The position numbers and the translations under genes are program-made. This document shows, piece after piece, positions 2,316-43,235 of a DNA stretch of 64,000 nt. Position 1 is the stretch's first letter. Each line of letters opens with the position of its first letter. The notes beneath the pieces are model-generated. The model was not told the origin of the DNA. It did no database searches and worked only from the letters and a program-made list of their open reading frames with translations. The stretch comes from an uncultured Chlorobiaceae bacterium (GTDB lineage: Bacteria > Bacteroidota > Chlorobiia > Chlorobiales > Chlorobiaceae). The DNA lies in assembly GCA_903895195.1 (NCBI GenBank), contig CAITSZ010000011.1, positions 186,001-250,000 of the forward strand. Direction: 5' to 3'.

Positions 2316-2755
2316 CCAGCCCTGAACGTGATCATTTTTCTCCTCACTCAGCACTCAGCACTTTCTTTCCCCTTGCCAACTGCCCACTCTCTTCCTCTTC
2401 CCTCAGCACTGTTCCAACTATGACGAACGCTAAACGTACCGCCGCAAATCAGCGTAACGCGCTACGCTCATCCGGCCCCCGAACAGACGCAGGCAAAAGG
2501 AGATCCTCTGTTAACGCCATGCGGCACGGCCTCACAACATCGATCGAAACCTCCCTCTGGTGGCCTCACCTCCAGTCGCTCCAGGCTCTTCTCGAGTCCG
2601 ACGGACTGAATCCACCGGAAGCCCGAGAGCTTGCACTATGCATCCTCAACTACGAGCGCAACGTCCAGTCCCACCGCAAGCTCCATCATGCCATCAGGCA
2701 CCTCAGGCGAGCAGCAAATCAGTTAATCACGCAGTGCAAGAGCTTGACGATTTGA
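2312..2755 (+). CDS. Unknown protein with the GPRTxxGKxxSxxNAxRHGL motif
   Basis: 147 residues from the coupled start at 2312; a second ATG at 2420 begins directly at the conserved part (MTNAKRTAANQRNALRSS). The stretch NQRNALRSSGPRTDAGKRR, then SSVNAMRHGLTT, is a recurrent N-terminal signature of a large family of unknown function. The 36 residues between the two possible starts (HSALSTFFPLANCPLSSSSL and similar) are translated from degenerate 7-bp repeats, so they are probably not ancestral protein. No ribosome-binding site precedes 2420, which favours coupled initiation at 2312. Basic, soluble, no catalytic motif seen. It might bind nucleic acid, but nothing in the sequence proves that. 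Confidence 0.55.
   Translation: MTSPERDHFSPHSALSTFFPLANCPLSSSSLSTVPTMTNAKRTAANQRNALRSSGPRTDAGKRRSSVNAMRHGLTTSIETSLWWPHLQSLQALLESDGLNPPEARELALCILNYERNVQSHRKLHHAIRHLRRAANQLITQCKSLTI
2344..2411 (+). repeat. Heptanucleotide repeat block A, inside a coding sequence
   Basis: Contains CACTCAG-CACTCAG-CACT (2346-2362 region), then GCCAACT-GCCCACT (2374-2388 region) and CTCAGCACTG at 2402-2411. These are the same 7-bp units as in the other blocks of this window. They separate the coupled start of the gene at 2312 from its conserved domain. Confidence 0.7.
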
Positions 2756-2798: not shown

Positions 2799-2935
2799 CA
2801 GTTTGCAGTCCACAGTAAGCAGTAGGCACTCCAAATCCCTCAACCCCCTCTATCTTCACTTGCCAACTGCCCACTGCCAACTGCCCACTGCCCACTGCCA
2901 ACTGCCCACTTCTTCATCTTCGCTCAGCACTGAGC
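2799..2935. repeat. Heptanucleotide repeat block B (three sub-arrays)
   Basis: Sub-array 1 (2799-2833) is five consecutive 7-mers: CAGTTTG, CAGTCCA, CAGTAAG, CAGTAGG, CACTCCA. Sub-array 2 (2861-2909) is seven consecutive units of TGCCAAC or TGCCCAC. Sub-array 3 (2921-2935) is CGCTCAGCACTGAGC. Period seven is exact in each; only unit content varies. It fills most of the 320-base gap between the unknown gene pair and the ABC-ATPase gene. Confidence 0.85.
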
Positions 2936-2962
2936 ATAGGATTGCAGCTTTTCCGCAAATAC

Positions 2963-3076: not shown

Positions 3077-3820
3077 ATGGCTGAAGTCATTCTCAAACTT
3101 GAGGGTATACGAAAGGAGCTTGAGCTTTCTCGTGATATCCGTCAGACCATCATCCCGAACCTATCTGTAGAAATTATGGCAGGGGAGTTCGTTGCTATTA
3201 CAGGGCCTTCAGGTTCCGGTAAATCAACACTGCTCTATATTATGGGCGGGCTCGACAAGCCGACAGCAGGCAAGGTATGGCTTGATGGAGAGGCGATTAA
3301 CGAAAAGAGTGAGCCTGAAATGAACCGGATCCGGAACGAAAAGATAGGGTTTATCTATCAGTTTCATTTTTTATTGCCGGAGTTTAATGCTGTCGACAAT
3401 GTCAGTATGCCGATGATGATCAATGGCCGGCGCACGAGAAAGGAGATTAAGGATAGAGCGAAGTTGCTGCTCGATCTGGTTGAAATGCAGAACAAGTATA
3501 CCAACAAGCCAAGCCAGCTTTCGGGGGGGCAGCAGCAGCGCGTCGCTATTGCCCGGGCACTGGCAAATGAGCCTAAAGTGCTTCTTGGGGATGAGCCGAC
3601 CGGCAACCTCGATTCGCGCTCTGCGAACAATGTTTATAATCTTTTTGACCGTCTCAACCGGGAGCTGCATCAGACCGTAATTGTTGTCACCCACGATGAG
3701 GAGTTTGCCAACCGTGCAGGGCGGCGGATCCATCTCGTTGACGGAAAGATAGAGAGCGATGTACTGTTGCGGCCGATGGTAGACAATAGAGCAGAAGAGC
3801 AAATGCAGACCATGAATTAA
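3077..3820 (+). CDS. ABC transporter ATP-binding protein, LolD/MacB-like
   Basis: 247-residue ATPase subunit of the LolD/FtsE/MacB class. Walker [10 protein letters not shown] is at 43-51, Q-loop near Q95, signature LSGGQQQ at 148-154, Walker B VLLGDE at 168-173 followed by PTGNLD, and switch histidine H206. It energises an integral permease that either releases lipoproteins (LolCDE) or drives a MacAB-type pump, but no permease gene is in the window. The residue string [20 protein letters not shown] is typical of LolD. The start is ATG 3077. cruA follows after 23 bases on the same strand, so the two may be cotranscribed even though their functions appear unrelated. Confidence 0.85.
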
Positions 3821-11585: not shown

Positions 11586-12428
11586 ATGGGCCGTGCGGCT
11601 GTTTTTATTGACGGGGCAAACCTGTTTTTTACCCAGCGTCACCTTGGGTGGCAGATTGATTTTTCTCGTCTGATGGCATTTTTTATCTCGGGGTATGCCT
11701 CAGTTCAGGCGAATTATTATGTGCCTGCTTCCGAGCCTGTTTCTGAAGAAAATGCCGCGTTTACGAGAGTCCTGACTGCACATGGCTATCGGATCACCTC
11801 GAAATCAGTCAAGAAAATTGTCAATAAGGAGACCGGAGTGATTGTCATGAAAGGCAATCTTGATGTTGAACTTGTTGTTGATGCTTTGATTGATGTTGAC
11901 CACTACGATACGTTTGTACTTTTCAGTGGCGACAGTGATTTTATTCCTTTGCTTAGAGCTTTAAAAGCTAAGGGTAAAGAGGTTATCGTTTATTCTACCC
12001 AGGGGTTGAGCGCTCGAGAGCTGCTTGCCGAACCGGGTATCGATTATTGTGATATTTCAGTTTTGAAAGAACGTATTGAGCAGGTAAGGCCGGGAGATTC
12101 AGCTCGCATTGAACCGACATTCGCAGCGGGCGAGCAGGAGTTTTCGATTCGTCTTCCTGATATTGGAGAACTGTTTACCGGTACAGTGCTTAAGGTGCAG
12201 CCGTACGGTGTTTTTTTAAGTAACCCCTTTCATGTTAAGTGTCTTCTTCCTCTCAGCTTTTTCGGCATCAGTAAATATATCAAGGATTTAACCGCGATTG
12301 TTCGAATGAGTGATGTTTTTGAAGTGTCTGTCTTCCACGTCAATACCACTCGTGAAGTTCCGGAAATTACTGTTAAACTTGTTGATAAAAAGAAAGTTGA
12401 AGAGCTCTCATCGAGGATAGACGGATAA
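11586..12428 (+). CDS. NYN/PIN-like nuclease domain fused to an S1-like RNA-binding domain
   Basis: 280 residues. The N-terminal half is a LabA/DUF88 NYN domain: IDGANLFF with D9, then D93 and D99 (GNLDVELVVDAL), then D116 and D118 (FSGDSDFIPLLRAL) form the acidic site of PIN-like ribonucleases. The C-terminal part from about residue 187 (GELFTGTVLKVQPYGVFL, then FEVSVFHVN) has the shape of an S1/OB RNA-binding domain. The fusion suggests an RNA-processing or decay enzyme. An in-frame relic of another gene begins four bases after its stop. Start ATG 11586 is preceded by AGGGGAAC. Confidence 0.8.
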   Translation: MGRAAVFIDGANLFFTQRHLGWQIDFSRLMAFFISGYASVQANYYVPASEPVSEENAAFTRVLTAHGYRITSKSVKKIVNKETGVIVMKGNLDVELVVDALIDVDHYDTFVLFSGDSDFIPLLRALKAKGKEVIVYSTQGLSARELLAEPGIDYCDISVLKERIEQVRPGDSARIEPTFAAGEQEFSIRLPDIGELFTGTVLKVQPYGVFLSNPFHVKCLLPLSFFGISKYIKDLTAIVRMSDVFEVSVFHVNTTREVPEITVKLVDKKKVEELSSRIDG

Positions 12429-18484: not shown

Positions 18485-20530
18485 ATGGTTATGAGAAAGC
18501 TTTTCATTTCTCTCAAACGTCATGTACTGCAGTCAGTCATGACGTTTTTTTTATTTCTGACACCCCTCTTTTTTCCTTTTTCCTTTCTTCATGCTGAAGA
18601 TCGTGACCTTCAGCAATTGTTCGACAGCGCAGAATCTGAAGCAAATCTTGAGCAGTTGGTCAACTTGATTGAAAATTTAAAAACCAAAAATATTTCTCTC
18701 AATCAGGCAGACGCCGATGAACTCCGACAGCTTCCCTGGCTGACAACCTTCGATGTTCAAGCCATTTTGTCATATCGCCGTGATAAGGGTCCGATTCTTT
18801 CCCTTGAGACACTTGAACCTATTTTAGGAAAAGAGAAAACCACCGCCGTTGCCCCCTATATTCTCCTGAATTCAACCACAACTCCTCCATCCTCAGCACT
18901 CAGCACTCAGAACCCAGCACTTTCCTTTTATAGTCGCCTGAGGTGGGAAACAACAGAGCGTAAAGGCATAATAACCGGTGCCTACAGTGGGGATAATTAC
19001 AAACTTAATCATCGCCTGCAGTTTTCTGCTCCTCACTTTGATGCCGGTTTCGTTCAGGAAAAAGATATAGGTGAGCCTGATATTGCAGACTTTTCGTCAC
19101 TAAGCATTCGTGCCTATGATTTTGGGGTTATAAAAAATGCTGTTATCGGTAACTATCGGCTGAATTTTGGAGAAGGGGTGCTCATCGGACAGAGCCGAAC
19201 GTTTTCTAAAGGCTCTGAACCGATAAAGAGTGTCCAGCTTTTATCAAAGCAGATATCCGGCTATACATCCAGTTCCGAAAGCGGGTTTCTGCAAGGTGCT
19301 GCAACAACGTTGAAGCTTGATCATGTTGAGGTAACTTCATTTTATTCGGCTAACCATGTCGATGCCGTCATCAATAAAACAAGTGGACTGATTACCAGTT
19401 TTGATGAATCGGGTAACCATCGTACCTCTCTTGAAACAAGCCGGAAAGACAATGTTACAGAAACCCTCACAGGAGCAAATCTGCTTTATCGGTATCAAAC
19501 AGACCTTTTAAGCGCCAAGCTTGGCGGTACCCTTTTCTACTACAATTATTCCCAACCCCTCGCAATCCTCAACCCTCAGCCCTCGGCCCTCAGCACTCAG
19601 AACTCAGCACTATGTTATAGTATCCAGGCAGATGCTTCCCTCGACAAGGTCAATCTTTTCGCCGAAGCGGCATTTTCAGAAAAGCCAAATGAGGCCTCAT
19701 GGATAGCAGGCTCAGAGTTTGAGATTGTTAAAGGCGTCAGCATGATTGCATCTCTCAGGCGCTATGGAACCTATTTTTATTCACCGTTCTCGGGAGCGTT
19801 TGCCGAAAGGGGAGTTGGCGCCTCAAACGAACAGGGAGACTATGTCGGTATCAAGGCAAAAGTAAATAACAGACTCTCAGTAGGTGCTTATTATGATCTG
19901 TTTACCTTTCCATTGCTTGACGATCATTGTTTGTACCCTTCTGACGGGAATGATTGCAGAGTGTTTATGACATGGAAGCAATCGCCATTCGTAATCTGGA
20001 ATCTGGAATTGCAGCATAAATATAAAGAAGAACAGGCAAATCAGGGGAGTACGGGCAATCCGCTATGGACGGCACTCCCGAAAATCACTGATCGCAGCAG
20101 GCTGGATTGTGATGTAGACGTTTCCAGGCGTGTTCATCTGAGGAGCCGTGGAGAAGTGAAAAAAGTTGTCAATAAATATCAGTCAGGTGACTCAGCATTG
20201 TTTGGATGGCTGATATATCAGCAGGCGGGTTACCATGTTGGCACATTCAGTCTGAAAGGGCGGGTTACCATGTTCGACAGTGATGATTATGATGCTGCCC
20301 TCTATGCTTATGAAGATGACCTGCCGCTGACCTCGACTCTCGGCCTTTACAACGGACGCGGGAAATCACTTTTTATATTGGCATCATGGCAGGCCATGCA
20401 GGGGATGAAGCTTGCAGTACGTTACGATATGGCCTGGTATAGTGATAGAGATCTCTTTGGCAGCGGCAATGACGAACGAGCCACCAGTTCTCCCGGCTCA
20501 TTCCATCTCGGCTGTTTATTGTCATTCTGA
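18485..20530 (+). CDS. Helix-hairpin-helix outer-membrane beta-barrel protein
   Basis: 681 residues. A signal peptide (MRKLFISLK, hydrophobic run to about 35, cleavage near LHA-ED) is followed by a ComEA-like helix-hairpin-helix segment (ISLNQADADELRQLPWL, YRRDKGPILSLETLEPILG). A long beta-rich region follows, ending in Phe (GSFHLGCLLSF), as in outer-membrane barrels. Similar proteins are known in Bacteroidetes and Chlorobi without a set function. Two insertions, SSALSTQNPALS (about 137-148) and NPQPSALSTQNSAL (about 362-375), are translated from heptamer repeat DNA and probably sit in surface loops. An AATCTGG-AATCTGG doublet near 19997 may be a third, smaller case. Confidence 0.75.
   Translation: MVMRKLFISLKRHVLQSVMTFFLFLTPLFFPFSFLHAEDRDLQQLFDSAESEANLEQLVNLIENLKTKNISLNQADADELRQLPWLTTFDVQAILSYRRDKGPILSLETLEPILGKEKTTAVAPYILLNSTTTPPSSALSTQNPALSFYSRLRWETTERKGIITGAYSGDNYKLNHRLQFSAPHFDAGFVQEKDIGEPDIADFSSLSIRAYDFGVIKNAVIGNYRLNFGEGVLIGQSRTFSKGSEPIKSVQLLSKQISGYTSSSESGFLQGAATTLKLDHVEVTSFYSANHVDAVINKTSGLITSFDESGNHRTSLETSRKDNVTETLTGANLLYRYQTDLLSAKLGGTLFYYNYSQPLAILNPQPSALSTQNSALCYSIQADASLDKVNLFAEAAFSEKPNEASWIAGSEFEIVKGVSMIASLRRYGTYFYSPFSGAFAERGVGASNEQGDYVGIKAKVNNRLSVGAYYDLFTFPLLDDHCLYPSDGNDCRVFMTWKQSPFVIWNLELQHKYKEEQANQGSTGNPLWTALPKITDRSRLDCDVDVSRRVHLRSRGEVKKVVNKYQSGDSALFGWLIYQQAGYHVGTFSLKGRVTMFDSDDYDAALYAYEDDLPLTSTLGLYNGRGKSLFILASWQAMQGMKLAVRYDMAWYSDRDLFGSGNDERATSSPGSFHLGCLLSF
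18892..18921 (+). repeat. Heptanucleotide repeat block C, intragenic
   Basis: Four units CTCAGCA, CTCAGCA, CTCAGAA, CCCAGCA plus CT. Read in frame as SALSTQNPAL inside the outer-membrane protein at 18485-20530. Confidence 0.88.
19556..19613 (+). repeat. Heptanucleotide repeat block D, intragenic
   Basis: From 19572 the units are ACCCTCA, GCCCTCG, GCCCTCA, GCACTCA, GAACTCA, GCACTAT, with CCCCTCG further left. Read in frame as PLAILNPQPSALSTQNSAL inside the same outer-membrane protein as block C. Confidence 0.88.
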
Positions 20531-32283: not shown

Positions 32284-32298
32284 AGCGAATAAAATAGT

Positions 32299-32347
32299 AG
32301 TTGGCAGTAGGCAGTCAGCAGTTGGCAGTCCTGATTGCTGAGTGCCC
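32299..32347. repeat. Heptanucleotide repeat block E upstream of smc
   Basis: Seven consecutive 7-mers: AGTTGGC, AGTAGGC, AGTCAGC, AGTTGGC, AGTCCTG, ATTGCTG, AGTGCCC. The complement is the ACTGCCA/GCCAACT type found in block B. It begins 16 bases upstream of the smc start codon and ends about 97 bases from the 3' end of folP. Confidence 0.9.
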
Positions 32348-32443
32348 ACCCCCTAATCTGTCATCCCGACCAAAGGGAGGAATCTATTAAAACCCCAAAT
32401 ATAGTCCCTCATAACTCAACCCAGAGAAATTTGCCAACTCTCT

Positions 32444-43210: not shown

Positions 43211-43235
43211 AGAAAGTTCTGAGTGCTGAGAATAT

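Follow-up and report, generated by a model that had tools for sequence, protein, structure and literature searches.

The heptanucleotide tandem repeats of the Chlorobium-genus genome G000 (2.49 Mb, 49 contigs) form one family of AGT-anchored arrays that change in unit number, replace one another in the same slots of related species, nest beside or within older arrays, converge where both orientations share a slot and lie in the sense orientation immediately downstream of stop codons; all these features can be read directly from the sequences. On balance, the arrays are probably non-autonomous repeats of the STRR or long-SSR-like kind, which would grow by slippage and be reshuffled by recombination in places that tolerate them. 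Heptamers are reported to be the most abundant class of long simple repeats in most surveyed bacterial genomes (Mrazek et al., 2007, as cited in PMC4679880), and the Chlorobium arrays bear on the question of why the unit should be seven.

The window, a stretch of 64,000 nucleotides (G000:C11:186001-250000), contains several such arrays (Table 1). The most elaborate of these, at 2799-2937, is located between a small gene that ends at 2755 and an ABC transporter gene at 3077, the named relatives of which come from Chlorobium sp. L227-2013-22 and other Chlorobiaceae MAGs. The preliminary description presented this locus as three adjacent sub-arrays with the units CAGTNNN, TGCCMAC and CTCAGCA. The first two are as described, except that about 30 non-repeat bases part them, and the third consists of only about two imperfect units (CTCAGCACTGAGCA, 2923-2936). 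The orientation was overlooked: the CAGTNNN sub-array is inverted relative to the other two, so that the locus is a foldback in the predicted fold of which the left arm pairs with the right arm. Past the locus, at 2963-2981, comes a hairpin that resembles a terminator.

Table 1. Heptamer arrays and their parts in the window
Feature	Positions	Strand	Basis
Left arm, AGTTTGC AGTCCAC AGTAAGC AGTAGGC (CAGT anchor, drifting triplet)	2800..2827	+	sequence
Pyrimidine-rich non-repeat core between the arms, 34 bp	2828..2861	.	sequence
Right arm, seven AGT(T/G)GGC units (TGCCMAC on plus)	2862..2910	-	TRF, relatives
Pyrimidine spacer and worn CTCAGCA units	2911..2937	-	sequence, relatives
Nested composite, TGCCAAC block with pyrimidine spacers interrupting a CTCAGCA array	2340..2425	-	
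CTCAGCA array within gene 18485-20530 (helix-hairpin-helix protein), encodes SALSTQN	18882..18921	-	
Second CTCAGCA-type array within gene 18485-20530	19559..19615	-	
AGTTGGC/AGTAGGC/AGTCAGC array, intergenic	32295..32333	+	
Two-unit AGTGCTG-type remnant (CTCAGCA reads on minus)	43216..43230	+ (AGT strand)	

The exact 7-bp period that had been claimed is borne out. In a sliding test of the window, period 7 yielded 4 runs against 0.0 expected from 20 second-order Markov sequences, and across periods 4-25 no runs were detected except at 7, 14 and 21. The best TRF scores in the window (79 and 93) belong to the period-7/21 array at 2861-2910, and TRF places further period-7 arrays at 2345-2362, 18892-18921, 19567-19608 and 32299-32329. 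The recurrence of the units across the window likewise stands: ACTGCCNACTGCC with up to two mismatches has 17 matches, compared with 4.0 +/- 2.0 in shuffled sequence (0 of 100 shuffles attain 17), and CTCAGCACTCAGCAC has 11 compared with 0.08. The arrays are not confined to the window, given that the exact ACTGCCNACTGCC pattern has 107 + 126 = 233 matches in the whole genome and its reversed control 1 + 0. In a 359 kb sample picked partly around matches, period 7 accounts for 69 runs and every period other than 7, 14 and 21 for at most 3; the genome-wide statistics rest on pattern counts and on sampled stretches selected around matches. Array slots are predominantly intergenic, with 28 between genes and 11 within genes in G000, 63 and 1 in the relative G041, and 25 and 7 in the relative G043. 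Tandem 7-bp units above chance, genome-wide dispersal mainly between genes and copy numbers that differ between relatives are the properties that characterize repeats of the STRR type, and all of them are found here.

On the proper strand nearly all units read AGTNNNN (AGTGCTG, AGTTGGC, AGTGGGC, AGTAGGC, AGTCGGC), and the CAGTNNN, TGCCMAC and CTCAGCA units are accordingly one family on one strand, with a fixed AGT and a variable tetramer. When arrays found by period alone are compared with their consensus, the A, G and T columns mismatch in 15, 16 and 25% of the units and the other four columns in 28-39%; this anchor difference was attained in none of 5,000 random rotations of the columns (p<2e-4), and the relatives agree. 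AGT-phased arrays occur in 191 of 296 genomes of the phylum. A role for AGT as the sole anchor in the phylum is rejected, considering that GAT-phased arrays, the remainders of which drift strongly (GATTGTT GATTGAT GATTAAC GATTTTT), are present in 49 of 99 phylum genomes and ATG-phased arrays in 36 of 99, although the reversed control of the anchor search, TGA, is not independent because many units contain TGAGT. The anchor thus differs by species; in G000, both the GAT and the ATG searches returned zero. The congener G318 bears AGTCCTC/AGTCCCC arrays. In another Bacteroidota genome (G192), the locus L109 combines three AGTCNNN arrays, each ending in AGTTCTATTAACGTTTAGATC, such that drifting heptamers lie within a larger repeat.

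The composition of the units also bears on the possibility that the arrays form G-quadruplexes, a proposal made for the heptamers of Xanthomonas and Nostoc. Arrays cover less than 1% of the bases in the sample, yet seven of its 14 G3+N1-7 motifs overlap them. These seven motifs, however, compare with 80 arrays, a run of three or more G is not the rule among the units, and the commonest ones, AGTGCTG and AGTTGGC, contain no GGG. Such a role for the family is very improbable.

The arrays turn over fast between related Chlorobium species. At 2799-2937, the nearest relative (L051) carries the full composite between aligned flanks, with 10 units in the right arm as opposed to 7 in the window, and other slots vary too, so that the comparison of copy number between relatives that had been suggested does reveal variation. 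In three further sequences (L052-L054), the alignment stops at 2791 and starts again at 2923, and the intervening 35-56 bp include 2-5 clean CTCAGCA units. In five other slots, each of five relatives possesses a different composite of a different length, and the flanks can still be aligned. TGCCAAC blocks appear beside or within older CTCAGCA arrays: at 2312-2440, such a block is nested in a CTCAGCACT array, which relatives (L052 and L056) have without the block. An imperfect 18-bp direct repeat, ATGACCAGCCCTGAACGT (2312-2330) and ATGACGAACGCTAAACGT (2429-2446), borders this nested array and is common to the relatives. In the slot L031:1110-1380 and its orthologues (L091, L083), a NUDIX-like gene lies between arrays in G041, G042 has the gene but not the left array, and the gene is missing in G000, where the arrays alone remain. 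The G041/G042 pair provides the one clean case of a filled and an empty site, in which ATC borders the insert on either side, a possible 3-bp duplication that an insertion mechanism could also produce. Across 61 congeners, the counts of the AGT pattern range from 0 (24 genomes) to 415, with 158 in G000; array-rich and array-free congeners make Chlorobium a workable comparison set, and the arrays can serve as ready-made strain markers. The slots orthologous to those of L031 (L081, L083, L087, L091, L095) also hold other repeats, including runs of TATAGGAC(C/T)TATAGGACTTATAGG in G041, G042 and G044, and therefore look like general sites of insertion or expansion.

Variation in unit number, the frame-shifting 7-bp step and the presence of some arrays in genes are what would be expected of phase-variation (contingency) repeats that switch genes. 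Most slots, however, are intergenic or just past stops, and the in-gene arrays examined keep the reading frame across relatives, which makes switching a highly doubtful function for the family. In relatives, the loops that correspond to the two arrays of the helix-hairpin-helix protein consist of ordinary sequence: at 18882..18921 this holds for G046, where the length is about the same, and at 19559..19615 for G042 and G046, where it is similar. A gene for a class V aminotransferase (SufS-like; L033:10329-12545) encodes a long N-terminal extension that includes array-encoded repeats of the SAVGSRQ type.

Of the 36 pairs in which both orientations are present in one slot, 34 are convergent (AGT... 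...ACT) over three genomes (11 to 1 in G000, 18 to 1 in G041 and 5 to 0 in G043); in at least half of the slots, all arrays point the same way. The RNAs predicted from convergent composites fold with z values of -2.6 to -12.8, compared with a mean of -0.3 for random segments. The fold alone is no evidence of function because some single-orientation arrays also fold strongly on the G-rich strand. What lies between the arms varies. In a gene for an Eco57I/N6-methylase, 127 bp of coding sequence separate two convergent in-gene arrays, whereas two C17 composites share a near-identical core of about 95 bp but have different arms, and a third contains a diverged copy of the core. The sequence between the arms is thus sometimes native, and a single element with a core of its own is not the general rule. 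The C17 copies had at first pointed to snap-back replication; the possibility that the arms are copies of each other was discarded, the unit classes of the inner arms being uncorrelated (rho 0.02 over 17 pairs).

Convergent arms that enclose a core, and in particular the near-identity of the C17 cores, which have a Y1_Tnp gene about 1 to 11 kb away, are reminiscent of MITE- or REP-like foldback pieces moved by a transposase such as a Y1/RAYT enzyme. The numbers of Y1_Tnp copies and of arrays are weakly correlated (rho 0.35, p 0.005) among genomes that are phylogenetically dependent. Against mobility, 16 of the 24 array-free congeners also encode Y1_Tnp, the core in one gene is native coding sequence, no consistent ends were seen and the single-orientation slots are as frequent as noted above; on this evidence, dependence on RAYT is unsupported and an origin from mobile elements is quite unlikely. 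The repeated word GGGGACGTTATTCATATCGTAC (L047:3972-3993; L041:268, 2991, 3098; L036:7458, 13881; L037:13926) is found once just upstream of a Y1_Tnp (RAYT-like) gene, L047:4097-5074, and may represent the palindrome family of that enzyme.

The arrays follow a strand rule at the 3' ends of genes. With genes called by our own codon-model predictions (80-86% coding) instead of annotation, with the nearest array outside each gene considered and orthologues merged across G000, G041 and G043, arrays that start 20 bp or less from a stop codon have the sense orientation at 36 of 39 independent gene ends (p 4e-8), including 26 of 28 for the AGTTGGC class and all 11 after TAA stops. Farther out, at 21-80 bp, the preference declines and loses significance (24 to 12), and there is no orientation bias at gene 5' ends (18 to 22). 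Orthologous gene ends differ in unit class and agree in orientation. A stop codon is met within 90 nt in 82% of the frames on the AGT strand compared with 36% on the other strand, and therefore part of the sense bias comes from arrays that truncate reading frames; the stop lies inside the array or within 3 bp of it in 35 of 83 sense cases. As an artefact of array-supplied stops, the bias is only partly explained: it persists when the stop lies outside the array, when TAA stops alone are counted and when orthologues are merged, the C-termini of genes show no accumulation of antisense arrays, and truncation does not explain the TAA stops that follow conserved C-termini. The sense rule separates the slippage, mobile-element and RNA-function models.

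The proximity to stops, the bias in favor of sense, its absence at 5' ends, the retention of orientation at orthologous ends despite different units, and the folding of the convergent composites would all suit functional 3'-UTR elements, that is, G-rich foldable RNAs after the stop that affect mRNA 3' ends or the termination of translation and are kept in sense by selection. Yet 24 of the 61 congeners lack any match to the AGT pattern, the array is often missing or swapped at orthologous gene ends, arrays also occur inside genes and antisense near 5' ends, and no known RNA family in Rfam matches the arrays. A function of this kind is a minority possibility.

Under the slippage-recombination account, the arrays would originate from short heptamer duplications, either fortuitous or already present, at sites that tolerate them, such as intergenic slots and protein surface loops; whole 7-bp units would then be gained and lost through replication slippage, and composites and convergent (foldback) pairs would arise by template switching or recombination between arrays that share sequence. 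Slippage has been put forward earlier for heptamers in bacteria (Mrazek et al., 2007, as cited in PMC4679880 and PMC4692102), and it fits the changes in steps of 7 bp; recombination or template switching fits the growth of composites by old arrays and the loss of a gene between arrays. We infer from these patterns that slippage and recombination are the agents and that a strong sequence-specific function is absent. Any explanation has to account for three regularities, namely the constancy of three bases next to drifting ones, the convergence of paired arrays and the sense orientation right after stops. Plain slippage with point mutation predicts neither the constancy of AGT nor the 34:2 convergence nor the 36:3 sense bias, and for this reason slippage with recombination is held to be only somewhat probable and the 3'-UTR role retains some weight. 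The strand rule in particular is not explained by slippage and recombination alone and needs selection or a transcription-linked bias on top; slippage with a transcription-linked bias would reconcile most of the facts. It is further conceivable, though improbable, that AGT-phased repeats are written immediately past stops by a process coupled to transcription or translation, and that AGTNNNN and GATTNNN units are made in the same way in Chlorobia, other Bacteroidota and Cyanobacteria. For example, expansion on the G-rich coding strand might be promoted by R-loops or seeded by stop codons, and the arrays would then be a strand-specific 3'-end element.

Transposition of the units, which the preliminary description had put forward for checking, is not supported: constant array ends were not seen, a repeated target-site signature was not found, and G000 has no reverse transcriptase. 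An origin by reverse transcription is rejected because no RVT_1 match exists in G000 despite its 158 AGT-pattern matches; the array-rich G318 has none either. Carriage by phages was also discarded, only 18 and 4 matching stretches being present in 2.9 million viral contigs. Five contigs of IMG/VR 3300005578 that are filed as viral (L135, L137, L140, L143, L146; G+C of 58.6 and 57.2% in L135 and L137) contain many tight convergent AGTGCTG hairpins and may derive from a phage of an array-rich host or be misfiled host contigs.

Dispersed heptamers are known in Cyanobacteria, Xanthomonas, Beggiatoaceae, some Bacteroidetes and Geobacter (PMC4692102, PMC4679880, PMC2700814). The likeness to cyanobacterial STRR that had been noted holds with respect to dispersed 7-bp arrays with one to few unit types per species; the accompanying statement that the units are different does not hold for all of them. 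STRR include GGGGA(C/T)T in Nostoc PCC 7120 (PMC4692102), and AGTCCCC of the congener G318 is the complement of the Nostoc heptamer GGGGACT (PMC4692102). The P6b stem of the Nostoc trnL intron consists of degenerate heptamers, Class I TDNGATT and Class II NNTGAGT (PMC4476775); AGTGCTG rotates to GCTGAGT, which fits Class II (PMC4476775), and the GATTNNN arrays of Bacteroidota resemble Class I. In both cases anchored heptamers have free positions and inverted copies form a stem, but the trnL heptamers are confined to one intron hairpin whereas Chlorobium has hundreds of dispersed arrays, many of them unpaired. Unlike the STRR of Nostoc PCC 7120, the Chlorobium arrays have AGTGCTG and AGTTGGC as the main units, and convergent pairs, few in Nostoc, are the rule. 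The likeness to cyanobacterial repeats is one of shared motifs only, seven-base units being too short to show homology.

The GGGAATC repeats of Xanthomonas, with 70 of 186 in convergent pairs in Xcc (PMC4692102), are likewise heterogeneous heptamers in which some positions are fixed and others free, with convergent pairs and with lengths that vary between relatives; the unit is different, however, and placements on the same and on the opposite strand are about equally frequent in Xanthomonas, whereas the Chlorobium arrays are in sense after stops. Between aligned ORFs, 30% and 35% of the repeats in Xcc and 18% and 34% in Nostoc are on the same and the opposite strand, respectively (PMC4692102); that survey reports no such sense preference for intergenic repeats between aligned genes, although distance to the stop codon was not tested alike. 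The TAACTGA repeats of Beggiatoaceae, Cyanobacteria and some Bacteroidetes (PMC4679880) are also dispersed, biased with respect to gene orientation and patchily distributed among species, and their complement, TCAGTTA, contains AGT; they lie, however, mostly just upstream of start codons and related units are rare, whereas the Chlorobium arrays lie just past stops and have many related units. In Geobacter metallireducens, 49 GGGACCG four-unit elements are dispersed between and within genes (PMC2700814), as are the Chlorobium arrays, but the element is fixed at four copies of a different unit. No earlier account of Chlorobium heptamers was found in the open-licence literature, which is weak evidence that none exists, and the literature searched describes no function for such repeats in green sulfur bacteria, in agreement with the preliminary description. 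As far as checked, the new elements are the occurrence and strong swing between species in Chlorobium, the vocabulary common with Nostoc and the sense orientation after stops.

A short hairpin, GATTCC/GACCCC...GGAATGACA or GGGATGACA, occurs seven times in the sample, and four of these copies are no more than 30 bp from an array (32359-32384 in the window; L046:9315-9341; L047:5425-5451 and 11952-11978).
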